Shown here: positions 1-30,400 of the stretch, piece by piece
How positions within the stretch are numbered: position 1 is the first letter of the stretch
How the letters are laid out: each line of letters begins with the position of its first letter
Assembly: GCF_021155765.1 (NCBI RefSeq)
Contig: NC_060110.1
Coordinates: forward strand, 5,890,001 to 5,954,000
From: Diprion similis
Lineage: Eukaryota > Arthropoda > Insecta > Hymenoptera > Diprionidae
Direction of reading: 5' to 3'
Length of the DNA: 64,000 bases
Notes under the pieces: model-generated
Seen by the model: only the letters and a program-made list of their open reading frames with translations
The model's database searches: none
Told to the model about the DNA's origin: nothing
Position numbers and translations under genes: made by a program

Positions 1-2211
1 CGCATAATTGTACCTCATGCAACCTAATCCAACACCAATATACTTTTTTGTTTTTTCCCTTCTTCTCTTTTAAATTATTTACTTATTGCATTGTCAGTGA
101 AACATTTTTTGCACCAATTCTTTTCCCATTCAATTCTTCGAACGGATATTTTGCAATAAACTTATCCAGCAACTTATGCAGACATTTTTTTTTAGTATAT
201 TGAGATCACCAAAATATAATGAAAATAATAATAATAATAAAATTCGAAAGATCGCAGTTTCATGGTGTTTTTGGTTATTGATCAAATTTGATTTGGCTTT
301 TCTTAATCAGATATAATTTATTATAAGGTATTAAGGTATGCATTATATGTTTTATATCAGAAAACAGACGTCTAGACCATAAGTTGTAAGCTAATTATGG
401 TAAGCCCCACGGCTTGATATGCTGGAAGCTACATAGTTTTGTATTGTTAAATCTAATCCTAATATCCTAATGCATGTTTCGTATAACATGCGTGTAAACT
501 GTCACTACCCCATCACTGCAGTATACACACACAGGCACTCATCAGTGCAGTGCATGTAACTGACAATAATTTACAGGCTTTAGAATTTAAACATTGAGTC
601 ACAGAGAGCCTAGATTGGCACGCAAATGAACAAATTACATATCATCAACGTATACAATTGAGAATTGAGCTTATCATTCACGCATCATTCTTAAATATCG
701 CGATAATTTATCCTTGATTTTGCTTATTGATCAGTTTATTTGAAAGAAAAATTCTACTGTGCTCTCTCAATGCATCTAACACTAACAATCTGAACCTATA
801 ATCGAGTGGCTGATGATTCGATGATCTTTTTCTGTGAAATTAATCGCGACACATATATTGTTATAAATATAAGTCGAAAACTACCAATACATCATACAAT
901 AAAATTAAGGGTAATAAAATTCGTGCTAGATCACGGTTGTCTGACGCGAATAAAGGATGTAAATCAGGAACTCGGATAAATGTGTACAGTTAATTAATTA
1001 TAGTAAAATGAATCGACAAAGTTAAGTCGATTTTTTCATATCACATATGTTCGATTGAGTGCCAATGAGAAATAGATCTTATCTCCTAAAGTACTATACG
1101 TATGTATGATTATCGCACAATCACAAAGTACACGTGTATTTCTACTGTATCTATAATGTATGTATGTATGTATGTATACAGTCAAGTTTACAGAGTCCTA
1201 CATTGCTTTTTGCACCTGATATTATCATCATTATTATTACTGTTATTGATATTATTATTCATCAACGAAATCTATTACTCATCATATTTATTTATTTTAT
1301 TATTATCGGAGTCATGTAATCGAACGCGTCTCCCTTGGGAGAATCCATAGATTTTAATGAATTATTATTGGCCAATCTCCAGTGCAATTCTATACGTTAT
1401 ATCCTAAAGCCGTGTAAGTATAAAAAAGCTATGGAAAACATAGGCATCTAAAGAGGACCATGTTATCTGTGAAGATTGCTATACATATTTACTAGTAGAA
1501 ATTGCAATGCGCATATTTCGGTAAAATGTACAATATTTATATGCCTATAGTATATCCGTCTAGTATACATATATGGGTTTTCACTGGATTTCAAGATTGC
1601 ATTTACAGACGTATCGAATTGGCTGGAATCTGATCGCAATCGACGGATTCTAGTTGCCAGTATTTTCATAATATGCTGACAAATTGGATTTTGATATTGA
1701 CATACAAGCATATAATTATCGTTTCATAATTGTTACATAGGTGCAAACGAAATAACTATAATAAAATTCCAGGAAGTTGAACCGGCGCGCTTAGACTTCG
1801 TTATATAATCACAAGGCATATATTCGTTCTCGAGGCATTTTTATGTCCACAAATCGAACTGCAGATATACGAGTTGCGAATAAAATATACCTATATGTAT
1901 GACACGTTTATGCGTTCAAAAATTATGGAGGCTAGTTTAAAGGCGTGTAACACGAAACCCGTTGAACTCTCGTTATAACGAGACCTCACGACCTTAACTA
2001 TGATCGCACCTCACTTCGAGTCATACATATAACGTTATGAATATAATATAATGTAGTATAGTATAATATGATATAATATTGAATTACACGACTCGCCGGC
2101 GAGACCGAGTACACAGCGCGGTTTCTCTTGCAGAGACCTTACATGGGATATTAGAGACGCGAGATAATTAGTTCAGACGATGTAACGGGACAATGATGAT
2201 CATGATCCATC
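1..2211. other. Intergenic, no gene seen
   Basis: AT-rich sequence with short TATG/TATA microsatellites (about 1157-1180 and 2035-2085) and an ATT-rich run near 1220-1310. Open frames here are short, hydrophobic and without domain features or matching splice sites. The segment next to 2211 would carry the 3' UTR of the minus-strand gene that ends at 2212; TTTATT (AATAAA on the minus strand) occurs near 1287-1297. Confidence 0.6.
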
Positions 2212-3458
2212 TTATGAGCTTGAAACTTTGGGATCCTGAGTAACTTTTCGGGCGGCCTCGTAATAATCGTCCGAGGAACAGTCAGAGCCCCCATCATTGT
2301 CCATACTCGGTACCGACAGGGTGGAATATCCGGTTGAAGAGTCCGGAGTGGGCGGAGGTGTAGGCCTCGATAAAGAGACTTCGAAGGATGAGGAGACCGC
2401 GGTATCGAGGCACTGGGAAACTTCTGGTTTTTCTGGTTTGCTGCTGCTGTTCTCAGGGTTGCTCATCACCGAACGGATGAACTCCCGGGTTTCGGAACGC
2501 AGTGCATCCACCCGTTTCTGCAGCATGTGGTTGCGCCGAACGAGAATCATGGTCCGGGCGACGATGTCGAGCAGACCTAAGGGATAGATTATATAAGTTA
2601 CTGCGAAGAGCACTCGAATTCAAAGAGTATGCAATAACCAGTCTTTACAGGGCTGTGCGAATCAGCGCACACATTGATAAATCGTTTTTTCGAATAATCG
2701 ATTAATCAAAAACACTATCGATAGAGGCAATATTCGATTATTTCAACAAAATGACTAATTGAAAATTTCGATTAATCGAAAAAACGATCAATTTGCATAA
2801 TCGATTATTGGGAGTACGATTAATCGCATAATCGTAACTTTACATGTAATGCCAAACAAAAACAACCAAAAACTTGTTTTCGCGCAAGAATAAGGAGATA
2901 AAATGTATATTCCTGTAATTTGGAAATCAATGACAAGAAAACATTTTATATTGTTATTGTTGCGTAAAAAAACAATTTATTAAGAGACTCGTGTTTAGCT
3001 TTGCGTGTAAAACTATATTCTGCAGCTATAGTAGCCAAACTAAGTGACATTTTCAGTAATGACTGACCACAGCAGACAATGATCTTGAAATGCATAGAGC
3101 TGAATCCTTAACACGAGAATCGTTATTATATTGATAACCAACCTTCTTGCTGGGCAAAAAATGATCGCCAATGTTCGGTCTGGTGATCTGTAGAGGATGT
3201 CCTGGCGTTCGGTGCGAGACAACTTCTCGTTGGATAACACGAACTTGTCGGGCACGTTGGTTCCCAGATTGGACTCGGGGGTGGAGACAACGAACCGAGT
3301 CGATTGTTTTCGGGGTTATTAAAAATCCGCTTTATTTCCAACCGTTGTTGCTCCTTTACGATCCCATTGTTCAAAGTGCGTTGACGACGCCGTTTGTAAG
3401 AGCCAGCACCGTTCTGATCCTGCATTGATAATTCCGGTAGACAAATCGTTGGCGCCAT
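2212..3458 (-). CDS. CIPC-like protein (CLOCK-interacting pacemaker family), 2 coding exons
   Basis: Coding exons 3458..3143 (105 codons plus 1 base) and 2576..2212 (stop) join in phase 1 to give 226 aa. The donor after 3143 is GTTGGT; the acceptor before 2576 is a pyrimidine-rich CTTAG. A TTTTTTTCACCGCAG acceptor lies just upstream of the ATG (exon begins 3477), so at least one 5' non-coding exon is expected further right. Residues about 100-145 start GLLDIVARTMILVRRNHML and continue to ETREFI. I align this with the conserved C-terminal block of human CIPC (GLLEITLKTKELIRQN ... EQTQLFIEA): spacing of GLL-D/E-I, RT/KT, RRN/RQN and FI is kept. The N-terminus is basic and carries SPPPSP; the tail is Ser/Asp-rich. 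In mammals CIPC binds CLOCK and represses CLOCK-BMAL1. Function here is inferred only; the rest of the protein is not recognisable. Confidence 0.6.
2648..2840. repeat. Transposon-derived repeat in CIPC-like intron
   Basis: Begins with CAGGGCTGTGCGA at 2648-2660, followed by many copies of CGATTAATCG and its variants on both strands. The same 12-bp end appears inverted at 6879-6890, beside a related block (CGATTAATTGAAAAAAC at about 6829 against CGATTAATCGAAAAAAC at about 2771). This looks like two copies of one non-autonomous DNA transposon; no matching 8-bp target duplication links them as a single element. Confidence 0.45.
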
Positions 3459-6400
3459 TCTCAATGTACGGGTATATCTGCGGTGAAAAAAACAGTAATA
3501 AATAAATACATATATTGTGACGAAAATTGTAGCATAATTTCTGAGAAACATCGTCGAATAATGAAATACAAATTTTATCGTTGAAACGTTTCTGTGCGAC
3601 GATACGCGGGAGTTTAAAAGCATTTACACATTACGTTAATTGAAGTGTGATCAACGCCAGGAAAATCGTTCAATTTTTTTTCTCTTCCATCTTTGTACAA
3701 CGAAGAAACCATGAATGAAGTTCTGAACCAAATATCCAATTATTTTATATCGGTAACTAAAATTGAGATAATTATTGTGTATATTTTGTATATGCCGTTC
3801 ATTTTGTATCAAATAAAAAAAATTAAAAAAAAAAAAAAATCCCGTAGCGAACTTTCTTCTACACCGTTAGACAGATGAATTTTTTTAATCGTTAGCAGTA
3901 GTAACGGTCGCGGTTGCAGCTCAGGTTGAAGACAAAAAAGGCGTGCGGTTGAGCACAGGCTTCGCGGATGACTCGATCGTTATTGATTTCGCCTTGTATT
4001 TTATCTAGTGCAACTCCACGCCGTTCCATACGACCGATTATTCGTACTATAGTAGATATACAGTATAAGAGTGTAATTTGTGCACTTTAAGAACATGGGT
4101 ATTACGGTTAACGTGATTGGCAAAAAGAAATGTTGATGCAAAAAATTGCAAAACGAAAGTTGAAAGGTGCAATTTAAGTTTATTATAAGTGAAATTTTAT
4201 CGAACAAATGTAGCATTTACTAACAGTACAGAATTATTAACAACTTTTGCAGATATCATGGTGCTTGTAAATTTTTTCAACGCCAAATGTTCAATCGTGT
4301 GGTTTTTTATCCAATTATGATGAACTGTTTATTTTCCACGTAGCTGAATTTTCTACGAATCGTATAACACAGGTTCAACGGCTCGATTAAATTCTATATA
4401 TTAAATCGTCACAAGTATTTCGTCCGACAAAAGTATTTTGTTGAATTACATAAGTATTGCGTTCGCCGCACGTGACTACAGTACTTAGTTGAATCAAACG
4501 AATATAACTTGTCTGAAATAATTATTTCCCTCCGTGACTCCGTGATTCCATTGGCGCGAATATCATTGCTAAAGATTTATGAAACGGTGTTTCCTCATTC
4601 CTAACTTCCGTTTGAGACAGACGGGTCGATCAATCCTCAATACTTTACATTGTATGACGTCAAATATCTCTTTCGAATATCTCGTCGAAGAGAAAATAAA
4701 CGCGGAATGCAATGTTGGAAATGGTGAGGAGAGGGTGAGGAGAGGGTGAGTGTCGCGCGCGTGGATACGAGGGGCTGGTGAACTCATAAACGATTACCTC
4801 GAGGGTAGTTTCCAGGTTGAGTTTCGGGGAAGGGGGTTAAATGCGAGGGGATTTCGAGGGTCGACAGGGGGAAAGAGAGAGACGGAGCGAGGAAACTCTG
4901 GAGGGGATGAAACCCGGTAACGGCCTTGAACCCTGCGGGGGCACACGTGCAGAACATCGCACCGCGAAGGGGACGGCCGGCCGACCTCCTTGTATCTTCC
5001 GGATCCCGAGTTTCGTGGCTTAGTCTCGGGAAAAGTTACTTCCGTTCTTTAATCGCGTCAAGGTATGAATTCTGTATCGTAAAATCTTGGATGCTGCTAA
5101 CGGACAGTACGCAAGAATTAGGTACATCATTATTCATTTATCGCAGCACTTAAAATGGACATTTTAAAATTCTATGTTATAATAATAGTAAATACTAGTT
5201 ATTTTCGTCGCATCATTTTTATAATTCTTAATCACAGAAGATGCATAATATATTTATCATATTCTGTACAATCGACTTTTTTGCTATCAAAAAGACTGAT
5301 CGTTTTCTCATCCAACGATAAAATGTTTAACCCCAGAGGAGGCATCTCGTTATTTTTTCTTTTTTTTTTATTTTCTTTTTTTATTCACCCACTACGGAGC
5401 ATGCGTCTCCTTCATGTAAAATACTGTCTATAAACGAAAATCGGGTTCATATACGTATAGATGAATATCATGAAAGTCACTTTTCAAAGACGGACAGTCA
5501 TGAAAAAGTGCTTCCGTGCATCGACTTACAGCTACAAAAAAAGTAATGTAAAAGAGCACGTGGGGCCCGCTTGGACCCCAAATGATTTTCCACTGAGCAG
5601 TGATAATGACAATATCGACTAGGCTGACTTCTTATTGTTAGATACTTAACGGCAATTTCAGGAGCGTACTTTGGAATGGGAATGGGGTCCGTATGGACCC
5701 CACATGCTCCTTCTGGGGATATTATTACATATACATATCTGAGAACAAGTGTAATACTTGTAGAGCATCATATGCACGTGTATATATGTTATCATAGATA
5801 GTTTGTTGTGACTGGCACAAGCCGTTTGAAAATAATGTAAGTATATACACGATATATACCTACACGATGCATATTATGTATACACAGTTAGGATGAGATT
5901 CTCCGACAATGGTGAGTCAGCTGTTTTAGTCACGCAGAGTTCGCGTATTGTAAGACATTCAAATTCCGGGTGTATAAGTATATATATTACGGTATACGTG
6001 AGATTCTATCAAAATAAATACTATGTAGGATACGTATATTCTAGATTCGTACGCGTGGATAGTAAAGGTATTCCCTATATCAGAGCTCTTCGCTGCTCGT
6101 CGTAACCGTGGTAGATTCTCCAATCTATCCATATGTGATGACTGTGTGTATATAAGGAAATAAACTCGTCAAGAATCAAAGCGAAGCAGTGAAAAACGCG
6201 ATACGCTCGTGGTTTTGAATTATTCAAATCGCATGTGTCTAGACGCGAAGAAACCAAATAGATAAAGAGGCAGGAGAATATATATAAGGATATATACAAT
6301 ATCCTTCTGGGTTCTGGTGCAATTGTTCTTTTGTAAAATCTTATCCGCAATATTACTTACTGTGTGTAATCTAATCTTTGCCAAATTCTCCGTGAATTAT

Positions 6401-6737
6401 AAAATCGGAAGAATATTCCTTATAGACGTTTTATTTTTTTTTTTAATTCCTCGGGTATTGTGTACTTCAGGGTTGTAGCTAGCCTTGAATTTTTATCAAC
6501 ACTGCATTGCTACTTCCTACTATTTCTCAAAATTACTCTGCCTCCATTTTCTCTCCAGAATTTCTAGACTACATTAATTAATTTAGAATTTGTTTGATGT
6601 CCAATAATGATTCGAGAATTTCGATAAACACTCTACTATATCTATGTAGAGTTATTTCGATAAAAAAAAAAAAAAAAAATATCGAAATGGATAGATTTGA
6701 CGATTGAAACAAATCTGCATATCCGTATGACTTATGC

Positions 6738-6890
6738 CCGTGCAATTAATCGATCAACCTAAGACTGATATCAACCAATCGGCTCCCTCAAAAATATCCC
6801 TTTGCGATCAATCGAACATTAATTTTTCCGATTAATTGAAAAAACAGGTTAACAAACTCCACAGTTAACCGATTCCAATCGCACAGCCCT
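6738..6890. repeat. Second copy of AGGGCTGTGCGA element
   Basis: AT-rich, CGATTAAT-containing block ending in TCGCACAGCCCT at 6879-6890, the reverse complement of 2649-2660. The internal CGATTAAT(C/T)GAAAAAAC stretch is shared with the 2.65-2.84 kb copy. Confidence 0.4.
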
Positions 6891-6934
6891 ATAAATATAA
6901 ACATGGGCAAAAAGTGCAACGGCCGCCAACCGGT

Positions 6935-7415
6935 TTTGACACGTGTCTTTACGACAGGCGGCTCTCGGCCTGCAAACAGTCAAAGCGACGAGCCGCTAAG
7001 CACACGGAGTGGGAAAGCGCAACGCGAGAAAAACGAGTCCATGTCGACACGTGGCCTCCCCCCCTCCTCCCTGCCCCTCACTACGGCATCACCTCTGTCG
7101 CTTTCCCCTCGGCTGCTAGAAGCCGAAAACTCTTATTATATGCGAGGATGACTGAGGATGACCCGCGCTTGGTGAACGTTAAGCAAGTGAGGCTGGTGGT
7201 GATCCGCTGACACGTGCGAGTGACGTGTGAGTGAATTCGCGTATATCGAACGGAGTTATATTACGTACCCTTGAGCAAATGGGAACGTCGCCGCGACGGG
7301 GGTCGGCGTTCTAATTGCTTCTACCTCGGCGAGACGATTTTTTCACTTCTTCGCCACGCGACTTGTTGGCGATTTATATAGGTATACGTATAATTAACCC
7401 AATCACGTGGCGTGT
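6935..7415. promoter_or_regulatory. Candidate regulatory island with four CACGTG E-boxes
   Basis: GC-rich segment carrying CACGTG at about 6941, 7049, 7211 and 7404, three of them flanked as ACACGTG. Perfect E-boxes of this kind are bound by bHLH factors such as CLOCK-CYCLE. It sits about 3.5-4 kb upstream of the start codon of the minus-strand CIPC-like gene. Promoter activity is inferred from composition and motif density only; no TATA box or initiator was fixed. Confidence 0.3.
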
Positions 7416-9349
7416 TGGGCGTTTTCAACCGATGAAGCCTTTCGCTTTGACTAGGGCTGCTAGACGATCTTTGATTTTCTATAACGATTTCCGTGAAGCA
7501 GAGCGTTACTTGCCGCGTGACGGTGGTTATTACTACCGCGATATCGTAGTTATGAAATTTCTTTGAAAACACTCTGAGTATACGCGTGTGTAGGTACAGG
7601 AAAGGGTGGGGCAAAGTAGGCACCTTAAAATTTTTGATATCTCAAAAAATTTCGGGGCAAAGTTTGGCTTCCTGAAATTTTTTTAAACATATTTCAAATA
7701 AAATTACACGTTATTCGTACAACTTTATTATGCATTTTTGATAAGGGAAATTCTTCAATTCCCCATTCGTCTCCAACAATAATATACTCGGACGTGTGTA
7801 TTTATCATACATTATACTACACGTGAATGTATTTTCGAGGTCGATTTTACGTTCGCAAACGTAAAGTCGAAGCATGTTTAAGATGCCAACGTGCCAGAAT
7901 ATATATACCTATGTATACATAGAATTTTGTGAGGATATACAAGAAAGATGCATGTATCGATCGATCGCGAATGAGAATTATCGGTTGAAGTAAGCAGTTG
8001 TCTTTTCTCGTGTGTTTCGCGTGTGTGTAAAAAATTGTATACATAGGTATACACATTATACATGGTATGTATAATTAAATGTATACATTCATTGGAGTCA
8101 CGTTAGAGACGCGTGTTTGCCGTTAACGATTTTCAGCTTCTCTCATATATTATAAATATACTTTTATTAGCTAGAAAAGTAGGAGAAAAAAAAAAATTGT
8201 TGATAAAATTTAACCGAGACGCGAAACACTGACCCTCGGTGAAATGACATAAATACATTAGTCAGATTTACTTCCTCAGATATAAATACACGCGTTTATT
8301 GGTTTTATTTCTTAGTCGATATTATATTATATTATTTTATTTCATCCTTTTTTTCTTTAGGTAACAAGCCAAATTGTAATATCGAAAATAACAATGACAT
8401 GGACGTTATAGGCAACAGGTATACGTGGATTCGCTACTCAAAATAAGATGATCTTTCTCATTTTTTTATATATATATATATATATCTTGCAGTATAGGTA
8501 CGGTATAGGCAATACACACAGTGTCAGGGAAGCGGCTGATTTCACAGAGAATTCCTTGACCTCCTTATATATGCATTGCGATTATTCTTCGTGTAATGCA
8601 GGGACTAACGTGACGGGCAGAAAATAAGTTGTATACTATAATTATTACAGGTCTTGAATCCACAGATCACAAAGCTGCTTTCATATCAAGCTTATTACTA
8701 TTATATACCAATAACGTGGAATTGAGATTAATGATACATGGAAAAAAGAAAGACAGGAAGCATAAATAATAAAGAAAATGAAACCGAAAAAGAAAGAAAG
8801 TAAAACAAGGAATCGCTGTATTTGTTTAAAAAAAGAAAAGAAAAAGTCAAATCTCGTTTGAAACTGCGTATACTTTCGTAAATAAAACATACACGTATTA
8901 TATGTATTACGATACAACATAGAATGCGCTATTCACTCGCGCGCCACTTTTATAAGTAGAATTACCGTTGCTAATTCAAGCGGATGTTCAATTGTGTAAA
9001 AATAATTAGCGAAACGGTCCATTTCCCCCGTTGTGCTTTCCCATATGTATACATATTTACAGGGACACGCACTCACGATCTTTGCACGGTGAAAGCGACA
9101 CGAGCGCTGCAGAATGCGTGCATAATCGTATGTATTATACTATGCACGTAAACTGTATATATATATATAGTTTCGAAACAATTGAGTAATTTCGCTGCTC
9201 GCTGAAAGAATTAGCACACAATTTTTAGTCGTAGATTAGTTGAGGAATATGTATAGAGATAGGATGTATTAAAAGAAAGTAAATCGGTTGTAAATCGATT
9301 TTTCCGATGAAATTTATCGAATCTGTGAAGAAGTCATTCCAACCTAAGA

Positions 9350-9760
9350 GCCGTTCACTTTGAAATCAAATGAATCATTGATTTCGACGTTATCATGCCA
9401 TGTGATTTTCATTGATTTTCAGTTTATATCAAGAGAGTTTCGGGCGTTCTAGGTAACTTTCAATGATTTTCAAATTGGATAGAATTACAGGAAATCACAA
9501 AAGATGACTGAAATCATAAGAAGTGAATGGAAATCAACGAAAGTACATTCTACCTATTAAAATAGAAATCAATAGAAATGTCAATGAATTGAAACCATTT
9601 GGCTCGTCAGTGCAACTTTTACAATGACTATCATGGATTCGACCGCCAGCCACACGATTTTTTCTTTGAAACTATCGCGTGATTTCAAGTGATTCCAAAG
9701 GATTTCCAACGTCTTAAATTATCTTGACTCAATCCTCGTTATTTGAAAGTATATTCCAGT
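9350..9760. repeat. Degenerate GATTTC-rich repeat, copy 1
   Basis: Dense in TGATTTC/TGATTTT and its complement, with phrases such as GATTCCAAAGGATTTCC. A clearly related block lies at 36220-36700 (GATTCCAAAGAACATTC and many TGATTTT words). No coding potential was seen. Confidence 0.4.
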
Positions 9761-10039
9761 TATCTGTAAGTTTTTTCAATTCTTATACAACTCGATTTCC
9801 AACTTTTATAAACGTATCCAGGCTTCCTTGAGTACCTACGTAAATCGCCTCTCGATTCCGACGGTGAAATTTAGATTCACGCGAGGATCCACGACACGGA
9901 CGCAGAACAATCGTCCGAATATTGCAATCGTGGAACGAAAATCAATTCGAATCGTTCATCACCCCGGCCGCAAGGTCGTCTTTCATAGGTGTTAGTCGAG
10001 TTTCTGCAAGCGGATCTCGCGGGTTATACCACGTGAACT

Positions 10040-10056
10040 CCCCCCCCCCCCCCCCC
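10040..10056. repeat. Poly-C tract (17 C)
   Basis: Uninterrupted run of 17 cytosines in a GC-rich island. Similar runs occur at 11821-11844 (24 C), 16989-17006 (18 C), 35186-35197 (12 G), 55463-55479 (17 G) and 59750-59760 (11 C). Confidence 0.9.
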
Positions 10057-10210
10057 GCCGACGCAACTCTCCGTCTCATTCCCAGTACGCCGACGCTTTA
10101 ACGCCGGCGTCCCGTTTCACCGCGTTGCGTCGCTTTCCTTGCCCTGACTATCGCGCGCACGTGGCTCCAAGTTCGATGCCCCTTAAAACGTCGCCCAAAG
10201 CGCGAGATTG

Positions 10211-10242
10211 GTAGGTGGGTAGGTGGGTGGGTGGGTGGGTGG
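10211..10242. repeat. GGGT-rich array
   Basis: Imperfect repeats of GTAGGTGGGT and GGGT on the plus strand supply more than four GGG runs within about 30 bp, enough for a G-quadruplex. It lies 150 bp from a 17-C tract. Confidence 0.7.
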
Positions 10243-11820
10243 ATTGGTTGGATGCCTCTGAGCACAGGACCAAGGATATAAGGGTAACCACTTATCCTGC
10301 TATCCGTACTTGGATCTTTAAAGCAAAAATTCTACCAACGACTGTGTTACTACGGTTTGAATATTAGAGTAAAAATTACTTGATTGAAATTGTATAAGAT
10401 ACTTACTATAAGTGTTTTTTTTTTTAATCGTCGATTGTAAATTTATATTATATGTAACGGTGTTATAATTCTCCATTTAAGGTTCTTTGTGTCTAATTTT
10501 TCTTACACTTACCCAATGGGCTGTATAATTATTTGGAATTGGACAAATTCGGATTAACCGCATATTTGGTCTTTGAAAACTTGATTCAATCTAAATTCTT
10601 TGGAAATAATTTAACCTCAGACTTTTTCAATTAAAATTGCAGTCTTCAAACGTTTGCGTTGTGGTAATAAGGAGGCCGTTGAAGGAAACACGCTGAACGG
10701 ATTCTTCTTGGATCGTTGCAGATTCCAATTACTTTCAGGTTACGTGGACGAACTTTTTAATTTCTACTTTTTCATATTTGGTAATACGAATAATCATGGA
10801 ATGATAGTATCACCCTCTGCAATAAAGGAGCAGATATAAGACTGCAAGGAACATTACCTTTTCAATAATAATTGTTAATTCGCAACTTCACAATCGTCAG
10901 TAAAACAGTGAGGTGTACACTGATGAAAAAAAAAAAAAATTGTTGAATCCAAGAAAATCTTTAATCCAATATTCCTTAGTAGACATTAAATTATTTTAAA
11001 TGGTTATTTACTTGTGGCAAGGAAAGTTTATTTGAACTAGAATTATTTTTATTGAAGTAAGGGACTGCTGAGAAGTACGGGAACCGGAATAAATATTATT
11101 TTGAATCAAATAAACTTTTTTTTTCAGTGTCTGAATATAGCCAAATATATTCAAACTTCGAAAATTCAGTTTTTGAAAAATTCATTCGAAAGTTGAATAA
11201 TAGCTGTCCGTAAATTTTTGTTATACATGCAGTGTTCCGTTATAATAATGTACATAACAACCTCAACCTCGAGTGAAATAATAAACTGTAATTGGATTCG
11301 ACTCACACAATGTATAATATAATTAGTCATTACATATCAACATACTCTATTATACTACTAATTGTCAGCTAAATCGCATATACATACAAGTGCACATTAT
11401 GCTGTTTGAGATGGGGAAGCCATCGCGCGGCAATGTAAATATTGGTTAAACTCGGAGCCTTTGAAACGTGGTGAATTTATCATCGCGATTAATCCGAAAA
11501 AGTCTGCATGTGTGAGTAAGTATGTGCGACACGTGCGTTCCGGGTAACCAAGTCGTGTGTATTCGCGAAACGTATACGTACCTACGTGCGCGATAATACG
11601 CGGGATAAGACGACAGACCTGCGGCTGCATGTGAGCGGTGCTGGGGAGGGAGGGTATCAGGAAATGTGGGCCACACGTGGCGATAGCGCGCGATTCCAAT
11701 GACTAAAGTATGTATGTATCCACGTATGTGCAATACATTGTGTACCCACTGGTCTCAAACATCCGATTACATGTGCGCATGTAGCCAGTGGATTAGGAAC
11801 GACCTCACTTTTTTTCTTAA

Positions 11821-11844
11821 CCCCCCCCCCCCCCCCCCCCCCCC
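11821..11844. repeat. Poly-C tract (24 C)
   Basis: Longest homopolymer of its kind in the window, immediately after a short T-rich run. Length should be treated as uncertain because such runs assemble poorly. Confidence 0.9.
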
Positions 11845-14800
11845 TCAAATGCCGCCACGCGCATTGCCATCGCGGTTTTATCATCCCGTTTGAATTTTGA
11901 TACAAAATATAACTAGTTTTAGCGTTTGCTGAGGATAGATAAAGACTGCAGCTAGTAAGGGGCGTTAAGGCCCCAGGGAAATTGCAGTGTTCTGCTATAC
12001 CGACGCAATTCAACAGAGGATCTATGAGACGGGTCGGTAAGTACAGAGGAATAGGATTCCCCCGATCGCGCTCAGATCCACCCAACCGGATGAAATATTA
12101 GCCCAGGGGCTGAACGTCTTTACGTATCTTCAGTCACGCCTACAGGGTGAATTTCTGACGCGGTGACAAATTGTAACATGCAGTATTTGTATAGGTACGG
12201 CCGATTTTGATTCGACTCTGCCAATATTCACTCGAAAGGTTTGAAAAATCAAACTCTTTAATAGCCGCGATGCCTGGTCTTACACGGTATGATTATGTTC
12301 GTATAATTATATGGATCAATGACAATTAATACGCACTTTTACCTGACATAATATCGAAGTACATTTTACACCACGCTTTACACCGAAAAGTATACTACTT
12401 CCATATTATGGCACAGTGAAGTCAGCTACACGTGTTTATTATCATTGGTCGACATAATCATACCGACATTATCATAGAGTGTAGACCAGGCGCGATGATT
12501 TTTATTATTTCAATTTTACGTGAACCGATATTTCTTCACGTTTAGTAATTTGCGACTTGCGATTGTGCAGTATATTGATTCTCTTTACGCATATTGAAAA
12601 TAATTATAGTTAAGATATTATACGTGTAGAAATCGTCTTGCATTGTGTAAGAGAAATACTGTATTCGATATGGATTCGTGTAGTATTTTTATATATCATT
12701 TTATGCAAATTACAAAGCATCAATATTTCAATAATACTTTTACCTTTTAACGTAAAATTATAGAAAATCGCCAGAATAACGCTTCTTTTACTTTTTAAAA
12801 AGACCTTGAAAAATACATTGTAAAATCCGGTGTGAAGTTCTAGAGATTATATATAATTTTAGAAAGACCCGACTAAAACAGTGAATAATGTTTGATGTTA
12901 GATCGTATGTTTCTTTTTTTCAGATCGATTCATGTGCTAAACCATTTCGTGCCGAATTGATTCTTTGAAGTTGATTTCTGAGTCACCAAATTTTTAGGAA
13001 TGTACAAATTTTCTGTAGCACGCAACGAAAGGATTCCTTGAAATTACCAGATATGGCAATTAGAGAAAAGAAATGTTTTTTTGAATGAAATAAATGTTAT
13101 TATTTATAAATATGTTTATACATATCCTTACGCCATATTTGATTACCGTATTTATTAGACAATTTTTTTTCCTTTCCTTTTTTGTGAGTTTAATTTATTT
13201 TTTGCTACGGTTTTTGTACAACACTATGAGAACCACTGCAATAACTGCACGACACCGTATGAAAATCGCGATGTATCTAACTTCGAAGGTGCAAGAGATG
13301 CAGTGCTTCTCATATTCACTAAAAACTGTGTCGATAAAAAATAACTGAAAATACAAAATTCGCACATGCCTACGGGTTCTTGGTTAGATAAACTGGTTAA
13401 ATATATGTATAACTGGTAAAAATGTGGCACGGTTTCTATATACTCCATCGAATACTATTGGTCTCTCGCTTAACTACGCCATTTGTATAAATTTTAATTT
13501 TAATGCCGCGTGAAACGTTTTCAATTTTCGTATACAACTGAAAGTTATCGGTATTATAATTAGGGAGCATGTTACTGTTATTTCGCGTGTTTGATCCGTC
13601 ATATTTTCGATTAGATACTAAGAACGCCGCTTGTAAGGCGGTGTGAAATGCTAAGGATAATATGCCGTTGGCACCAAACCTTTCGACGCAGGCCACCATG
13701 GTTTTCTGCTAATTGTTGTACTTGAAATTTTTGCAAAAATTGTCTGAACCGAGCGATTCATTGTTTTCAATACATATTGCAAAATCACGTACGTGATTTT
13801 TTGTTATACGGAAATGCTGGGCTCGTTTTACTGCCGAGAAGCTCTGAATTTTTCTTAGATCTTTATGGTACTATTTGATCAGCATCGTTACGATAAAATA
13901 ATCGTTACCATGAAGATTCTCAACTTTTTTGTAAGCTCACAATCACGTTGTATATGAATAGATTTTACACTGCAACTGTGTCAGAACCCTATAATAATAA
14001 CTTTGCATGTTTAACACAGAATCGAGAAGAAAAATGACTAAAATAATACAGTCCCATCTTATTAAATTCAAAAAAGGTTTCGTCGAATCTATAAAACAAT
14101 TTACCTACATCAGTGAATACTTTAACCTCGTTATCCTGGCAACTAACCCGAATCCTTTAATCATATTTGAGAAACGAATTGATCTTGAACTGTCTAGATA
14201 GAGAAAATCGTGCAGAATTTTTATAATTATTTGGAAAAAAAAATAAACATCGTTACATTATGCCTGAGGAAAATCTTATTTTACGGATTTCCGCAAAGAC
14301 ATTTAGATTACACATTACAGGTATTTAAACATTTTCTTACAGGTAATTTCCGTATCTTATTGTCTGTATTGTACATACATGATATACTCTGCGCGATTTC
14401 AATACTGTGCACAATTGTCTACGTAATTATGGTATTAGGTATAATGGAGCAATTGCTTGCAGTTAATTACAGTTCAATCGATCGTTGGCCTGGGTGGTAT
14501 AATGTCTTCGTTATTAATTAGTACAACGAAGAATGCCTTAAAAAATAATTGCTCGAAAAGAAATTACGTTGTAAAAAAAAAAATCATACCTATAGTTGTT
14601 TTCAAAAACTCTTCAAAAATTCACAGCCTACACCCTCTGCAATCTCCGAACTGTAGCAAGTCGTCCCGTCGATCGATGTAGATCACCTGTGGCGCCCACG
14701 TTTCAGTTTTATATCGTTTATAATATCTTTGTTAGCGTATTATTCTCGCTGTATTTGTTGTGTGTAATTTTTAATCGTTATTTAGATACTTTGCTGGATC

Positions 14801-16988
14801 CGTAAGCGGTGGAAAGTAAATAATGCTGAGTGACACTATCTTGGGAATACTGTGCGGGTGAAGAGAATAGTTTCAACTATCTATGCCTCGATCTATGCAC
14901 ATATGATAGATATAGATATTCTTTAAATATATTCTACAATAACGTATGTATAGTATGTAAGATATGTGGTACACGGGGGATTAAACGCTGGCCTATTCCT
15001 AACCTGAAAATATTGCTTATGAATGTTTAATATTATACCAGACTTTTTTACGTATATAATAATATACCGGGACAGACTGTCCTGTCCTTTTTCTCTCTCT
15101 TTTTTTCCTTTCTGTTTTGTTTATCTCAGAAAACTATAGGTCAAGCTTTAACTTGTCAGAACAGTGTAAAAAAATATGTATGTACATGTGTCGGAACGTT
15201 TTATTATACAATTAATTTTATCTCCGTATATCGTACAGCGTGTTTATAATTGCCCGTTTAAACAACCGTTTTTACAACGTACTTTGAAATCTGTTCGCGG
15301 CAAAGTACGAGTATATTTGAATACAGACGAACAGACGCGCACTTATACGCAATACGATCTCTTAATATTGCAGCGTTCTGGGGTTTGTGAAGTGAAGTAG
15401 CGCACTGCACCGTTCGAAGGTTTGCGGGCGACTGAGAAATACGCGCCATGTTCGAACGCTCGTGGAAATACTAACGCCACAGCGGTTGTAGGAAGGCATG
15501 TACCGTACATACATACATAGAAACCATGGATTCGTAGGCTCCCGCTTACACGCATATAGATATACTGCTAATAATCATGATAACGAATGTGCGGCACGTG
15601 TATCCCCTCCAATGAGGACAGGAAGGATTTCGCAAAAGGTGCGCGCGCCCGCTTCGCCCAACCGCGACGCCCCGACGGTACGTTATACGTACGTAAACCC
15701 ATATACGTATACGTGCCTACGGATTCAATCACCTATATATACGATGCGTACATGCATGCAGACGCGCGCACGTGTACATACATCCATCCGCGTAGCTCGA
15801 CACGCGCATTACCCGCCAATATCGCATATTATATATACGATAGACGTCGGGGACTCCCGTACTGCTAGCCGCGAATCCGTTCTCCTCTCTATCTCTACAC
15901 TCGTTCATCTGTCAAGTCGCACCGACGACCGGACGAGATGGGACGAGCCCGAACGTCTCGCTCTATTCACTTGTAGATTCGAAAAAAGGAAGCTTAAGCG
16001 ATCAACGGCCTCGGCGGCTCCCACGTCAATATTGTACAATATTGTCGCAATCGGTAGGAGCGAAATCGGAACACCTTGATTGCCGTTGATAATAGCTTGC
16101 ATGATGTAGCGACCACATCGCACATGTAGTTTCGCCGCTGTGCATTCGCACGGCATCAACCGCTAATTGCCCGTGTGATCACGCACCGTTTTTTCACTTT
16201 TCCTCCGACGTTGCAGCTTTGTTCTGCAAAACAGACCAGAAACAACGTCGGCGCTGACCCGTAACGATAGACCAAGCGTTAGTTCTACATAGCGGAATAT
16301 GGTGGGTACCAAAGGATACCAATTACATGTATACACCGAGAGTTTTATACGAAGCTGAACGCCAGTGGATAGGTAACCGAAGCTACTTTCTTTATGGCTA
16401 CATATTCGTAGTTTTACAAAGAAAAACGCCTGGTTAAAATTTGGTGGTTTAAATCGAATCCATGAAAAAGTTAAAATTATATCGAGTACGCTGCATACTT
16501 GGGATCATTTTAAAGCATATATATTAATACAAACGTATAATATACAATAAATATTTTAAGATTATAGACATATTGGTGAGAAGTCGAGAATTATCTATGC
16601 AGAACGTTACAACCGTGTTTTTTGCTACCGACCTTATATATCTTGAGAGAAAATCTACAGAAGACAACAAAGAAAGTTCAGGGGCTGAACGAGAACGAAT
16701 ATTTCAGAAAAGGAAGTCGCCTCGAGAAAGAGAGAGCGAGACGGTGACCGGGGTGGCGAGAAAAAAATAAAGATCGAACAGAAGAGTGAGGAAAAAAGGG
16801 GCGAGAGAAAGAGAAAGAGCGAGAGAGAACAGAATTCGAAATGATTTGGTTCGCTTCCTGGCCGAAGTCGTCGCGGAGAGTGCGGAGATGCGAGGGGCAG
16901 CGCACGTGTAACCGGCTCCCCCACTCCGCGACTCGAGGCTTCGTTGAAAAGAGCGTCCTTCACCGTTTCTCCCACCCCTAGGGGAGTG

Positions 16989-17006
16989 CCCCCCCCCCCC
17001 CCCCCC
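16989..17006. repeat. Poly-C tract (18 C)
   Basis: Run of 18 cytosines inside the GC-rich 16.65-17.3 kb island that also carries five CACGTG hexamers. Confidence 0.9.
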
Positions 17007-19600
17007 ACCCCGCGGCAATCCAGCCACACGCCCTTTCCCTACCCCGTGCCATGACCCCGGCGCGGCGATTGCAGCTCCACGTGGCCTGAGCAGCGCAATC
17101 GATGCACGTGTACGTCCTATATATTCTGCCTTACGTAGGTACTTACGACGTACATACGTATGGACTTGTCACTGTGTATCTGCCATCTACCACGTGCGCG
17201 TCTGACTATTTCTATGCACGAGTCGACGCGCTTGTGTGCAACGACACGTGGAAAACCTTTGCCCCTTCCACTTACTATATGTATGTTACTCCCGGAGTCT
17301 CGAGCTTTTTTATTTGAAGCCTGCACGCGTAACTTGCCATGTGTAACTACGTTACTCGCTTGTATCATGGATGTAATCATCTGTAATCACCTTTTGAGCT
17401 CACATGCGTCTGGCAATCATTACATATATTCGCCGCTTAGACGCGCCTCCGATGAGTGTTCGTCAGTGACGATTTTGCAAGAAAATGGATTGCATGGGCA
17501 TACCGAAATCAATACGAATATCGTTTTAGTGAGTTGAATACGGGTTTACGGATTTGCAGATTTTTTCTGATTTTTTTTTTTTTTTTTGTCGTACCTTCGA
17601 ATACTGTTAATGCAACTTCCTTTCGTTCTAATCTGGAATGTACAATTCCGTCTTGGTCCATTCCTATGCGTAGAATAATCTAGAATGATCTAGGTGAATT
17701 GAAATTTTTACTAACGAATCGGATATTAGAAAGGCACAGAGAATATTCTGGGTGTATTCACCACAATCCCAACATAAAAGAGGAGAAAGAAATCAAATCC
17801 GTAGACACATGCTGGAACACAATAAAACTGTTAATTCTGATTTGGGGATCATGAGAACGAAACTATATAAATTAATACGCTTGAATCCTCTTTCCCTTGC
17901 GCGGAATATTAATTGCTTCCCACTTTGACAGTCACCGTCTTTGTTCGGCTCGCTCGGTTCTATACTAAAGCTGACGATTAAAATCGATTTTTACTTTTAC
18001 ATTCAATGATGATTCTTATTTTATATCTGTATGTATAGATATTGAATAGATTTGCGGTTGCATAGGACGTCTATTCGCTTGAAGTACCGTGTGACAATGT
18101 ATTGACATGTGATACTTAAACATGAGTCTCTGCGGGATCTATCCTGATTTTTGATATAATCGAGAAACTGCATTTGTTTACGCGAGATTTGCTCGTCAGT
18201 CCCCATTCCAAGTAAATTGGATATTCAAATTTATTTATCATTTGCGGTATCGGATCAGATCATTCATGAATTAAATCGGGTTCTGTAACCGCAGTCATTG
18301 ATAAGGTGGTCATTGACCAACTTTTCAGTGATCACATATTCATACGTTACGTGTGCGATGGCCACTATGTTGAATTTTGGTCCTGAAATGTGAGGATTTC
18401 TATAAATGCTTAAACCGGTCACACAACTTTGATATCGCTTCAGAATTCCTCATGCTTATGAGCGAAAGCTTTCTTGATTTATGAAGAATCTGGTTTGATT
18501 TTGGTCAAGATAAACCAACGTGCAGCCACTGTAAAACATCTTCGCCAGAATACGAATTATTATTCAGTTTCTGGCTGCCAATTTTCTAGGAATTTGTTTC
18601 GTCCAACCCGAAATTAGAAAACGAGCCGGATGCGTTGAGTTTTGATCTATATATATGTTACTGAGAAAAAATACCGACTCGAAGTATGACGTAATTACGG
18701 AAGAAACCAATTCCGGAAACACTCGTACATTTAATAGTAAACTCAAATTTAGTCATATCTTATATTGGGGTGAAAAGATTGATTGTGAGTACTAATTGGG
18801 AGTCCCAATGAACAGGGTGCATCATCACGTAATTCGATAGATCTTTCACCAAGTTGGACAGAGATTCTAAAGTATCAATGGTTTACCGTGATTGGTGAAA
18901 CAAACCTGCGAAAACAATAGATCTTTTGAATTAAACTTGAAGAAACAAGTCGAAGTTTAGCAGCTGCTGGTGTTGGAATCCCCCAGTTTGAATCACGTAG
19001 TTTGGATTCTTTAGGACGAGACTCTTTCTAAAGCAAATTATTATAAAGCTAAAATCGAAACAAATAAAGTAATTATATAATGATCAAAACAAAAGACAAT
19101 TATAAAATATAACAAGAGGTATAACAAAAAAAAAAGTACACTGGCTCTTAGCCTAACAACGTATAATCCGTGATATAGTCATTAAGGAAAGAAAAAGAAG
19201 GGTGAAAAATTTATACAAGCATTTTGTGCGCTCAATCATGTTCATCAAGTTACACGAGGTCTATCAAGATTTTATGAAAATGAGGTAACTCGCGCTGCAA
19301 GGCTGTTTCGAAATATATAAAAAGTACCTTTTGCGTGTTTTCTGCAGAAAACTTGCAAATGTGGCGGCCTCAAGTGAAATGGATTACAAACACCACATCG
19401 ACCTAATATCGGTAACGAAGCGTTCTCCACAAGCAAAGAAATTAGCTGTTCAATCGTGCTACCAGAGGGTGCCAGTTTCCTACTAAGAACGTGTAACGGC
19501 ACAGGAGTGACTCGCTAGTTTCAAGATTATCAAGAATATAAAACAGGTTATAGTTCACTGGCATAATTTTGACCAAGAACAAGGAGTCAGGGCTTGAAGC

Positions 19601-19964
19601 ATGAGTATTGATGGAGATCAAAGTTCGCAAGACGCGGTAGATCCACAGCTACAGCATTTCATCGAAGTAGAAACGCAAAAGCAACGATTTCAGGTTAGCC
19701 CGTTCACCATGTTTGAGATCTTCCTCCAGGTACCCCTAAAACCCGTCGATAATACAAGTAATTTTGATTTTGCAGGGCCTGGTCCACGAACTGACTGACA
19801 TCTGCTGGGAGACCTGCATTGACAAGCCGACTGTCCGTCTAGAATCGAGAACTGAGAACTGTCTTCGTAATTGCGTTGAGCGATTCATAGATACAACTAA
19901 TTTCATTATGAATAGATTACAGCGCACTGCTCTCAACGCGCACCCTGAGTTGGCCATGGAATAA
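19601..19964 (+). CDS. Tim8: Mitochondrial import inner membrane translocase subunit Tim8
   Basis: Exons 19601..19693 (31 codons, phase 0) and 19776..19964 (62 codons plus stop) give 93 aa, the usual length of this family. Donor CAG|GTTAGC; acceptor TTTTGCAG|GG. The second exon has the twin CX3C signature, C41-WET-C45 and C60-LRN-C64, with 14 residues between the pairs as in human TIMM8A, and RFIDT in the following helix. Small Tims form 3+3 hexamers (Tim8 with Tim13) in the intermembrane space that chaperone hydrophobic precursors to TIM22 or SAM. The ATG at 19601 is the first in frame and gives the acidic N-terminal helix typical of Tim8. Pex3 follows 117 bp downstream on the same strand with no AATAAA between them, so the two may share a transcript. 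Confidence 0.95.
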
Positions 19965-20046
19965 TTCTGACGGCTCACCATAAGATAGACTCGAGAACAC
20001 TTGCATAGATTAAAATAAGCTTACGTGTAACTTGGTTTGCGAGAAA

Positions 20047-20076
20047 ATGACAAATGAGCCTATGAACTTACCTTAA
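20047..20076 (+). promoter_or_regulatory. Nine-codon upstream ORF before Pex3
   Basis: ATG at 20047 opens a nine-codon frame that stops at 20074-20076, five bases before the Pex3 ATG. A second in-frame ATG lies at 20062. If this segment is in the Pex3 leader, the short frame could lower initiation or force re-initiation at Pex3. Confidence 0.35.
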
Positions 20077-20081
20077 TCAAC

Positions 20082-21221
20082 ATGTTTTCACGTTTGAGAG
20101 GATTTCTGTATCGTCATAGACGCAAATTCGTCGTCAGTGGCATCCTGGTCGGTGGCGTTATCCTCGCGACGAGGTATACCCAGAGAAAACTGAGGGAGTG
20201 GCAGGAGAGTGAAACAAGGATATTCATAGAGAGAACAAAAAGACAGCAGCATTTTGAGAGCACGGAAAGAACATGTAACCAAACAATATTGTCTCTTGCC
20301 AACGGCTTGCGGGACACCGTCACAAGTACCCTGAACACCGAAGCCATAGTGAATAAGCTTAGGCATGGCTCAAACGACAAAATAGCACTTTGGAATGAGC
20401 TGAAAGTTTTAGCCCTTGCTCGATCAGCGGCATTAATTTATTCCAGTACAATGCTGGTTGCGACATTGAGAATACAACTGAATCTGATGGGCGGCTACAT
20501 GTTCAGGGACTCGAAAAATCAGAATGAGCAAGCAAAAATAGATGGGGCGATGCAGGAGAGATACCTATCAATATGCGAGTATTTCATGAGTGAAGGATCT
20601 GTCAAGCTCAGTTTATTTATAAAAGAAAAAGTCGAGGAGACCGCCGCCTCCATATCACTGGCACAACGACTCACCCTAAGAGATGTGGAGCAAATATATT
20701 GGGGAATAACATCATCCATATCTGCTGATACTGAGAGAGATCCGATAAAAAATCTAAGCTCCTACGTTCTGCCTCAAAATTGTGAGGCCACTGGGGATAA
20801 AATTCTGTCAAAAATAATATCCGAGACTTTGGATTTGCTTGAAAGCGAGGAAGTGCAATCCCTCGTTAGGTCAAGTGTTAGAACCGGTTTTGTCATGATG
20901 GTCGATCATATCTCTGAATATTTTTTCGACTCTTCTTTCTCCGGTCAAGCCAAACCTGGTTTAGATCCTTTCGTCGCTGTTCCAGGCCCGTCGTCTCAAA
21001 GCGATTCGACTGAGAAGCCTATGGACGTTTGTAACACAAACGGCTTTCTCAATCTTGATAAAATGTCCATGCCTATGGCCAAGCTGATTCCCATAGTCAA
21101 TGGACAAGTTCCGGCCATTCCAAGAGTGGGTGATAGCCCCTCGCTTTGGGTTAAACAGTTAATTTTAAACGATAAACTCAAGACTCTTGGAGCCAATGTC
21201 TACGAAGCATTCAGCTTTTGA
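20082..21221 (+). CDS. Pex3: Peroxisomal biogenesis factor 3 (peroxin-3), single exon
   Basis: Uninterrupted 379-codon frame, against 373 aa in human PEX3. Residues 1-14 are basic (RLRGFLYRHRRKF), followed by one membrane segment (about 16-31), then YTQRKLREWQE and FESTERTCNQTILSL, all matching the PEX3 start. The PEX19-binding region is recognisable near residues 103-135 (W-x-ELKVLALARS, then STMLVATLRIQLNLMGGYMF). PEX3 anchors in the peroxisomal or ER membrane and docks PEX19 loaded with membrane-protein cargo, so it is needed for peroxisome formation. The gene appears intronless here although neighbours have introns. Codon use and family match argue for an active gene rather than a retrocopy, and I saw no second copy. 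AATAAA lies 124 bp after the stop. Confidence 0.96.
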   Translation: MFSRLRGFLYRHRRKFVVSGILVGGVILATRYTQRKLREWQESETRIFIERTKRQQHFESTERTCNQTILSLANGLRDTVTSTLNTEAIVNKLRHGSNDKIALWNELKVLALARSAALIYSSTMLVATLRIQLNLMGGYMFRDSKNQNEQAKIDGAMQERYLSICEYFMSEGSVKLSLFIKEKVEETAASISLAQRLTLRDVEQIYWGITSSISADTERDPIKNLSSYVLPQNCEATGDKILSKIISETLDLLESEEVQSLVRSSVRTGFVMMVDHISEYFFDSSFSGQAKPGLDPFVAVPGPSSQSDSTEKPMDVCNTNGFLNLDKMSMPMAKLIPIVNGQVPAIPRVGDSPSLWVKQLILNDKLKTLGANVYEAFSF

Positions 21222-24943: not shown

Positions 24944-26024
24944 CTACCAATGTGCATTGTGCATTTGTGCGGTTCGTTTAATGAAATCTCTGTGACTAGC
25001 GTACAATTCGATTTCCTTATTAACGTCAGTCCAGCAAACATTAGCAGCGTCATCTCCAGCGCTTAACTCCAGCTTGCCAGCAATGCTTCCATTTTCGTCG
25101 TGGAAGTTTAAAGCTACCGTTTCAATCCATGCATTGTCAGTATTTCTCGGGTCGTCAACATATCCTTTATACACTTCATCTCCTTTCTTGAAGAATTCTT
25201 CCACTGATTCTTTCAGTTCCTCAACCTGTGCCTCATCCTTCTCCAACGAGTTCATAGCCTCTTCCATGAATTCCCTTTTAAGTGTAGAAGTTACAACTTC
25301 CCCAGGATCCACCATCCCCCCTGGAAGAGCCCAGTCCCCAGAGTCTCTCCTCTGCACAGCAATAAACTGAAGGATCGGATTCTCTGTTACTCTGCTTATC
25401 TCAACTGCACCTGTTCCGTTCCTTTTCCAACGTGTAACTATTGGGTCTGCTGCGTGGTTCGGTCCCCAGCGGCCCAGCAGACCTCTGCCGATGATCCCTG
25501 TGCGGCCCACCGGATTCAGTGGAAATCCTTTATCACTGATTGTATACTCACCGGTGTGGCTTTTGCGGTTGACGTTGCCTGCGGGGATTGCCAGAAAGGA
25601 AGTCGTCGGGGCATTAAAATTAAAATAAATCGTATGTGTTGAAAGTTCTAAGCGTATTATCGCAATTTTTACCGTCCATGTCATTCCACTTTGGTGTGAA
25701 TTGAGCATCGCTAATGTCTGGATCTGCCCACGGTTGTCCCTGGATTGTGGGCGCTGAGTACGACGCAGGATTGTAATCGGGAAATTCTTTGGACCAGGGC
25801 ACTTTGTCCTCCGGTACTTCAAACCTGTTTACGCTTGAGCGCGGGTAGACACCCTGACGACAATTTTGGTGGATCATTTTTAATACCTTTTCACGCATCT
25901 GATCGCACGCCTCGAACCCTATGCGTTTATTCAGCTGACACTCGTCTGCCGATGACAACTGTGACACTAAACTGAATATAAGGTGGGCAAAGCAGATAAA
26001 CAGCCTCGAATTGTATGTGTACAT
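24944..26024 (-). CDS. ADP-ribose pyrophosphatase (NUDT9 family)
   Basis: Exons 26024..25673 (117 codons plus 1) and 25578..24944 (stop) give 328 aa; donor GACG|GTAAAA, acceptor CCCCGCAG|GC. The protein matches NUDT9 throughout: YPRSSVNRFEVPEDKVPW, WADPDISDAQFTPKWN, NPVGRTGIIGRGLLGRWGPN, HAADPI, KGYVDDPRNTDNAWIET and the terminal NAHW. The Nudix box is intact (G205-MVDPG-E211, then REF at 219-221 with E223-E224). NUDT9 hydrolyses ADP-ribose to AMP and ribose-5-phosphate and is the homologue of the TRPM2 channel C-terminal domain. The chosen start gives a hydrophobic leader (LFICFAHLIFSLVS, then SSA before DECQ) that looks secretory rather than a mitochondrial presequence. An alternative is that the first 60 residues are not coding and another 5' exon exists. 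Confidence 0.92.
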
Positions 26025-27444: not shown

Positions 27445-30400
27445 ATGGACACCCAGGTCGGCGACGCGGGAGCTGGAGGTATTTTGGCGATTCAATCGCC
27501 CAGAGTATCCGAAATCCCGGAGGCCCCAGAGCCAACGGGACTCAGTCCTCTTGCTTCTTCTCTCGACCATAATCTTACTCTACAAGAGGATTATCTACCA
27601 TCCGCCAGCAAGAACATGGGCATAGAAAACACGTGGTGAGTCACCCTCGGCTGCAACCGTATTACTTTTATCTTCTCAACTTCGTTTTAATATTTTCACA
27701 ATGGGTTTTTTTTAGGACGGAAGCTAATGGCATCACTAGTGATTGTGTCATTCCGATGCCACCGCCACCGGGACTGGAGGATTTTGTCGACGTTGGCGCT
27801 GACCCCATCGGGGATTCCATGATTGGCGTCGAGCATGGCCCTTTTCTTCCACCTGGTGGGCCAACGCTCAACAATCTCTTTACTGAGGCTGACGATGATC
27901 AGAATGACTCTGCAATTGGTAAGTGCCTTGGCGTAGAAGGATAAAAGCCTGATAATTTTTCTTTTGTATCGCATGAAAATATTGTTTAATTGCAAATCTC
28001 TGCCAATTCGAGTTTCTGGTTCACAAATTGTTTTGTTTTTTGGGATTCACAAGATTTCCTGGGCTCATTTTTAACAGTTTCACTCGCATAGCGTACAAAT
28101 TTCACCTTATTCACTTTTCACATTGACGGTATCAGGTTTTCCATTCCATTCTAGTGACTTTATTACTTGCTGACCTTTATACTCACTTTCATTTGCTTAT
28201 CAGAATTCTTTTTAACAATTTATTTCCTTTTTTTACACTTTCACTACTGTAAGACGTGGATTTTTAATTTAAGTTTTCAACTTTTTGAATTCTTGAATTA
28301 TTTAAAATGTTTTGTAAATGTAACTGTAAAATGATTTAGTAATGTAATGTATGAAAGATTTAATTAGACACCATTTTGTGTAAGTCAGTACTAACAAACT
28401 CATATAAAACCTTTTAATTTTGTTATGCAGAAGTAACAACGCCACCAGGCGTGTGTGGCCTTCGGAATCTGGGTAACACCTGTTTTATGGCTGCCGGACT
28501 GCAGTGTTTAACAGCTACTCCCCCAGTGCTGCGTCATTTCCTTGACTCAGAGTTGAGCTGTGATAAGTCTATGGTGCATCCACGATCGTTGATGGCTCAC
28601 TTTGGAGCGCTTTTGGGAAAGATGTGGTCCGGCAGGTACAGTGTCATCAGGCCAGCAGAATTTAAACAGACTCTTGGTACTTATCACCCGCAATTTAAGG
28701 ACTACAGACAGGTTAGTGATTATATTAGATTAGCTCAACCTTTCCAAAGTTTTTCTGGCTCGATTGAATAGTAAAAATTGAACTCATTGCAGCATGACTG
28801 TCAGGAGTTTCTAGCTCTCCTATTAGACTCTTTGCACGAGCAAATGAACACTGCGAAGTTGACAAAAAATCATCAAATATCTGCTACTGCTACTACTCCT
28901 GAATTAAATGGCTCAGATGAGCCTCTGCGAAATTTGGCTCCTCCCGACACGACTCTCACTACCTCTGTCAGTGATGCTAACTCCGTTGCTGCCGAACCTC
29001 GTGAAATATATGACAACCTCCCTTCTCCTGAGTGTCCAAACAGCCCGAATGTCACGATGGCTGGCTCACCAAGAGGTAAGGTATATCTACAAGTTGCATT
29101 ATATATACTTGTACAAATTGATTGGGCTTCTGATATGTTTCGTGATGCATGAAAAAATTGTCCATTTGAAAAACATCAACAAACATCCTTATACTGTGTT
29201 AATAATAACAATAACAATAATAGTTAATATTGTTTGAAGATTCAGATTCACCGATGGCTGAGACCGACAGTGCAGCAAATTCGCCCAGAGGATCATTATT
29301 AAATGATGATGAGGAGACATTGGATTCAGATGAAATACTAGAAACGAAGTCTAGTTTTATTCATAATAAAATGCAAGAGGATCCGGATACGGATACGGCA
29401 ATGACCGGAAATGATTTCCGACTAGACAAATTAGACAATGTATTGACGAGCAACAATGTCAGCTGCTATCATGGTTTATACGATATTTTGAAGGACGCTA
29501 AGACTAGCAATGCGAACTTCTTGGTCACAACACAAGAGAGCAACAACGAGATTCATTATGACTCGCAGAAGTTTCCTAAAGAAAACATCCGTAGAAATGC
29601 TTTGGAGAATTCAAATTTAACCGAGAATCATGACTTTGACAATAAAAGTGTCAGTATCAAACGAATAAAAGAAGTAAACGTCCAAGCTGGTAATCGCAGT
29701 ATTGACTGTCTATCTAGTGGATCTGATGCCGAGTGTGATAGTGGTCTTGAAAAGTGTAATGTCAAGAGAATGAGGCTAGATGATCAGGAGAAGAATCATC
29801 GGAAAGATGGACTAGGGGGTAGCGAGTCACAGTGTTCTAGAGTGCTACTTAACTGTGAGAATGGAGCGATTGCTACTCAAGGAGAGACAGAGGCTGAGGC
29901 CGATAGACACTGGGCAAAACATCTAAGAGAGAATAGAAGTGTGATTGTAGATACGTTCCAAGGGCAATTTAAGAGCACGGTAAGTTTTATAAAAAAAGTA
30001 GGGACTCGTAAGATATTGAACGTTTCTAAATTTCACTCATTTTCTCAGCCAATATTCGGTATTGAATCGTAACAGTACATTTGCAACTTATACAAATAGG
30101 AAGTGTGATTTGCGAACGTTTATTCATATCTAAAATAGAATCATATTCTTATTCCTATTATGAATTTTTTTAAATCAAATTCAATGATACAGGTCGTTTG
30201 TGCAGTCTGCAAACACATCTCTGTCACCTATGAGCCCTTCATGTACCTTTCGGTGCCTCTTCCTCGAGCCATGGAGAGGCAGCTGGCTGTGACGTACATC
30301 CCAGCTATCGGAGGTGCGCCCACACGATGTGTTGTTTCACTGAACAAGCAGTCGAGAATCGGCAAACTGAAAGAAGAATTGCTGCGGACCCTGGGAAAGA

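Follow-up and report, generated by a model that had tools for sequence, protein, structure and literature searches.

The window analysed here, a stretch of 64,000 nucleotides from Diprion similis, contains on its minus strand a small CIPC-like gene of two coding exons, which join in frame to give a protein of 226 residues (Table 1). The sequence-only reading of this DNA had proposed this join, and the two exon intervals do give exactly 226 residues. Ten ORFs picked from the 40 longest, out of 218 in the window with a length of at least 70 aa, were compared with Pfam, and six of the ten match a Pfam family. The set of matches fits an animal genome, and the observed/expected ratio of CpG, 0.80-1.60 per 4 kb, is one that we take to fit Hymenoptera. 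The long plus-strand ORF with the MAP10_N match resembles microtubule-associated protein 10 in the N-terminal domain of the latter, behind which come a Gly-rich and a Cys/Pro-rich tail.

Table 1. Coordinates of the features discussed in the text, as positions in the window.
Feature	Position	Strand	Description
Pre-ATG exon sequence	3459..3477	-	behind acceptor-like site
Exon A	3458..3143, 316 bp	-	ATG at 3458 to donor; residues 1-105 and base 1 of codon 106
Intron	3142..2577, 566 bp	-	phase-1 GT-AG, AT-rich; 5' end GTTGGT, 3' end CTATCCCTTAG
Exon B	2576..2212, 365 bp including stop	-	CIPC-type helix, then Ser/Pro-rich tail
E-box array	4469..17250	.	21 CACGTG upstream of the coding exons
Peroxin-3 (Pex3) ORF	20058-21218	+	Pfam
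NUDIX ORF	24947-25828	-	Pfam
Ubiquitin hydrolase ORF	28418-28768	+	Pfam
Ig ORF	39428-39856	-	Pfam
Kazal ORF	42951-43415	-	Pfam
MAP10_N ORF	47773-49155	+	Pfam

Exon A starts with an ATG flanked, as judged by eye, by an A in position -3 and a G in position +4, and it encodes a basic stretch, KRRRQR, and a segment, HWRSFFAQQE, that directly precedes the helix. The conserved block, GLLDIVARTMILVRRNHML, begins at residue 106 of the joined protein, and the Ser/Pro-rich tail that follows the helix in exon B is 83 residues long and probably disordered. The GC content of the two exons is 0.49 and 0.55, versus 0.32 for the intron. Within the ranges tried, 33 GT/AG pairs (11 donors x 3 acceptors) keep the block in frame; the pair chosen combines the acceptor that is best by eye with the donor yielding the longest exon A, and this donor, GTTGGT, departs markedly from the usual GTAAGT. 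That the cell joins exons A and B at this pair is what we infer from the DNA. Just ahead of the ATG is an acceptor-like site, TTTTTTTCACCGCAG, which has a long pyrimidine tract and its first exon base at 3477; the reading frame stays open across it, and together these make it likely that an upstream exon, perhaps partly coding, precedes exon A. Within the intron, positions 2681-2834 carry recurring repeats of the TCGATTAATCGA type in direct and inverted orientation, including one pair of 21-base arms that are 95% complementary; these are perhaps the remnant of a small inverted-repeat transposon.

The earlier observation that the block resembles the conserved block of CIPC is borne out by Pfam, by the PDB sequences, by an ungapped alignment and by shuffling. 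The proposed check against the Pfam CiPC profile (PF15800) gave a significant match, CiPC ranking first among the families both with the whole 226-aa protein (E 2.8e-4, 21.3 bits) and with the 64-aa block alone (E 3.2e-5, 24.4 bits), although both scores are under the Pfam gathering score of 27 bits. The match is one stretch at profile positions 288-331 of 338; profile positions 1-287 find no match in the 226-aa protein, and the homology to CIPC spans about 44 of the 226 residues. Among the PDB sequences, four match the block at E <=10, and the best, the CLOCK-interacting pacemaker (5vji/5vjx, E 5.7e-4), is the sole significant one, the next having an E-value of 0.51. The alignment of the block with 5vji_C covers 43 columns without a gap, with 15 identical and 25 positive positions and a score of 76, which none of 5000 plain shuffles reached (mean 19.8, largest 46), nor any of 5000 shuffles that preserve the heptads (mean 28.7, largest 65). 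Chance coiled-coil similarity was rejected on these shuffles, even with the heptads kept.

One explanation of these scores is that the gene encodes an unrelated coiled-coil protein, for example one that is CCDC106-like or of the DUF7774 family, which looks like CIPC only through shared heptads. The position of the CiPC score under the gathering cut-off would agree with this, as would the weak Pfam matches to CCDC106 (0.015 for the whole protein, 0.033 for the block) and DUF7774 (0.034, whole protein), behind which come Gp-FAR-1 (0.083, block) and Mei4 (0.16, whole protein). However, no coiled-coil family matches better than CiPC, whose E-value is better by a factor of about 50 with the whole protein and of about 1000 with the block, and the result of the heptad-preserving shuffles and the significance of CIPC alone among the PDB sequences also argue against it, leaving this explanation very improbable. 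The resemblance to CIPC is above chance in three tests (Pfam, PDB sequences and shuffles), and the family membership claimed at the outset is supported by all of them; we put the probability that the gene belongs to the CIPC family at about 0.88. As expected, the search for relatives in viral contigs gave no pattern match, and that in prokaryote genomes gave 14 pattern matches with no true relative among them.

Further support for a CIPC-type element was provided by the comparison with 5vji/5vjx, which presumably represents the mouse CIPC helix complexed with CLOCK exon 19. The aligned PDB stretch has a single Asn, in LIRQN, which is retained in this protein (LVRRN), and we take it to be Asn341 of CIPC, the residue that is reportedly central to the CLOCK contact (attributed to Hou et al. 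2017). AlphaFold2, given the 121 residues that start with G106 and no alignment, predicts a single helix over exon B residues 2-38, i.e., protein residues 107-143, with a pLDDT by tens of 91, 92, 89 and 78 and values of about 50 afterwards; overall, the model has a mean pLDDT of 63 and a pTM of 0.28. The model is consistent with a binding helix that has a disordered tail behind it, but a lone helix is weak evidence for any one family. The likeness to the 5vji/5vjx helix consists of the ungapped alignment, the kept Asn and the predicted helicity, whereas the remainder of the protein has no match to CIPC outside the helix, and the helix that stands at the end of the CiPC profile is found here in the middle of the protein, with the tail behind it.

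The sequence-only reading knew CIPC only from vertebrates and regarded this gene as a clock component possibly undescribed in insects, but CIPC is neither vertebrate-only nor undescribed in insects. Homologues from Drosophila, tsetse and sea anemone are published (PMC8635995, PMC12485850, PMC4476465), and Drosophila Cipc was reported in 2021 by Rivas et al. in Curr Biol, a study that is cited in two papers for the inhibition of CLK-CYC (PMC8635995, PMC11078541). Tsetse has a Cipc orthologue (PMC12485850), the sea-anemone CIPC is discussed (PMC11078541, PMC4476465), with a transcript of the Nematostella CIPC-like gene that cycles daily (PMC4476465), and in flies Cipc is counted among the core clock components (PMC12895490) and is one of the circadian genes expressed in the corpora allata (PMC10945768). 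Of three further papers, PMC12285964 says that invertebrates are without a homologue, yet its own table includes Drosophila studies; PMC13042505 mentions CIPC in a single passage, which concerns mouse CLOCK, with nothing on insects; and PMC11093582 has it in the reference list only, while the comment on that paper, PMC11078541, discusses CIPC. Judged by title among the matches listed from the honey bee and Hymenoptera literature, there is no paper on a hymenopteran CIPC; a search of the literature for CLOCK-interacting pacemaker and insect gave, by title, only fish papers, and one for clock-interacting protein circadian and insect gave nothing.

Because Cipc was already published in Drosophila, tsetse and sea anemone, the present gene would be a further member of this family and most likely an ordinary orthologue. 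Of these relatives, the Nematostella CIPC-like gene is also an invertebrate homologue, but a cnidarian one (PMC4476465). Insects gain no new clock component from this gene, as fruit flies were already known to have Cipc, and what it adds is a gene model for a clock repressor long called vertebrate-only. As an orthologue of Cipc, the encoded protein would inhibit CLOCK-CYCLE, which in mammals is CLOCK-BMAL1. Its helix, encoded by the first part of exon B, would dock onto the pair of CLOCK helices from the exon-19 region and hold CLK-CYC in a repressed state, and the Ser/Pro-rich remainder of the protein would be regulatory. Alternatively, the gene could be a relative of CIPC whose part in the clock has been lost and whose helix serves a different partner, given that the helix alone is recognisably conserved and that function is not readable from it. 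Against this stand the E-boxes concentrated upstream of the gene and the clock role that Drosophila Cipc retains according to work citing Rivas et al. 2021 (PMC8635995, PMC11078541), and we consider a relative without a clock role quite improbable.

The window holds 34 CACGTG sites; dinucleotide shuffles average 10.6, and none of 100 reached 34. Their distribution is uneven: the 16.5 kb upstream of the gene, at 3480-20000, contain 21 of the 34 where the local dinucleotides predict 2.8 (limits that were set post hoc, with the counts known), as compared with 12 versus 7.4 predicted in 20001-64000 and 1 versus 0.5 in 1-3479. These 21 sites form an array of about 13 kb, the densest part of which, 9 sites in 4469-7825, is nearest to the Cipc-like exons. 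Among the 220 strand-merged 6-mer classes that have four G/C and one CpG, CACGTG ranks first in 3480-20000 (21 versus a mean of 2.84), while the pooled density of these classes is equal inside and outside this region (ratio 1.05). When the region was modelled as a Markov chain of order 1, 2 or 3, none of the 200 runs per order reached 21 sites; the order-4 model, which nearly contains the motif, reached 21 in 6 of 200 runs, and the 9 sites in 3480-8000 in 18 of 200. A scan statistic gave p 0.007 for the 9 sites of the densest 3.4 kb and p 0.015 for 4 kb. The densest 16.5 kb hold 22 sites, one of which, at 1131, lies on the downstream side of the gene, and this number was reached in 0 of 5000 runs. 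No CACGTG pairs spaced 4-10 bases apart were found.

This concentration fits a clock control of the Cipc-like gene from a putative promoter position, in which CLK-CYC and/or CWO would act through the upstream E-boxes. A parallel is offered by the fly, for which PMC8635995 places E-boxes at the locus of Drosophila Cipc, a gene that would be of the same family. Nevertheless, the assignment of the array to the Cipc-like gene competes with the explanation that the cluster serves another gene or factor, such as Pex3, an undetected gene or factors of the MYC, USF or Hairy type, and is uninformative on Cipc. CACGTG is bound by many bHLH factors, the sites reach to 2.8 kb from the Pex3 ORF, and the first exon of the Cipc-like gene is still to be placed; on the other hand, the densest part of the array is the one closest to the Cipc-like exons, and a six-frame Pfam scan at E <=0.01 found no domain in 3480-18478, a scan that stopped short of 18479-20057 and would miss any gene lacking a Pfam domain. 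We give this other-gene explanation only a little less than an even chance. Control of the Cipc-like gene itself could go further, making Cipc a principal E-box target in this animal, in which about 21 CACGTG in about 13 kb drive a strong, CLK-CYC/CWO-controlled cycling and the protein is a main, not a minor, negative arm, but this stronger version seems unlikely. Against the weight of the array, CACGCG (ratio 3.3) and CATGTG (3.1) are enriched in 3480-20000 as well, while CAGCTG (0.44) and CAGGTG (0.18) are depleted, and close CACGTG pairs are absent. The unusually E-box-rich upstream region is what is new here; it is directly testable, and is the part worth following up.
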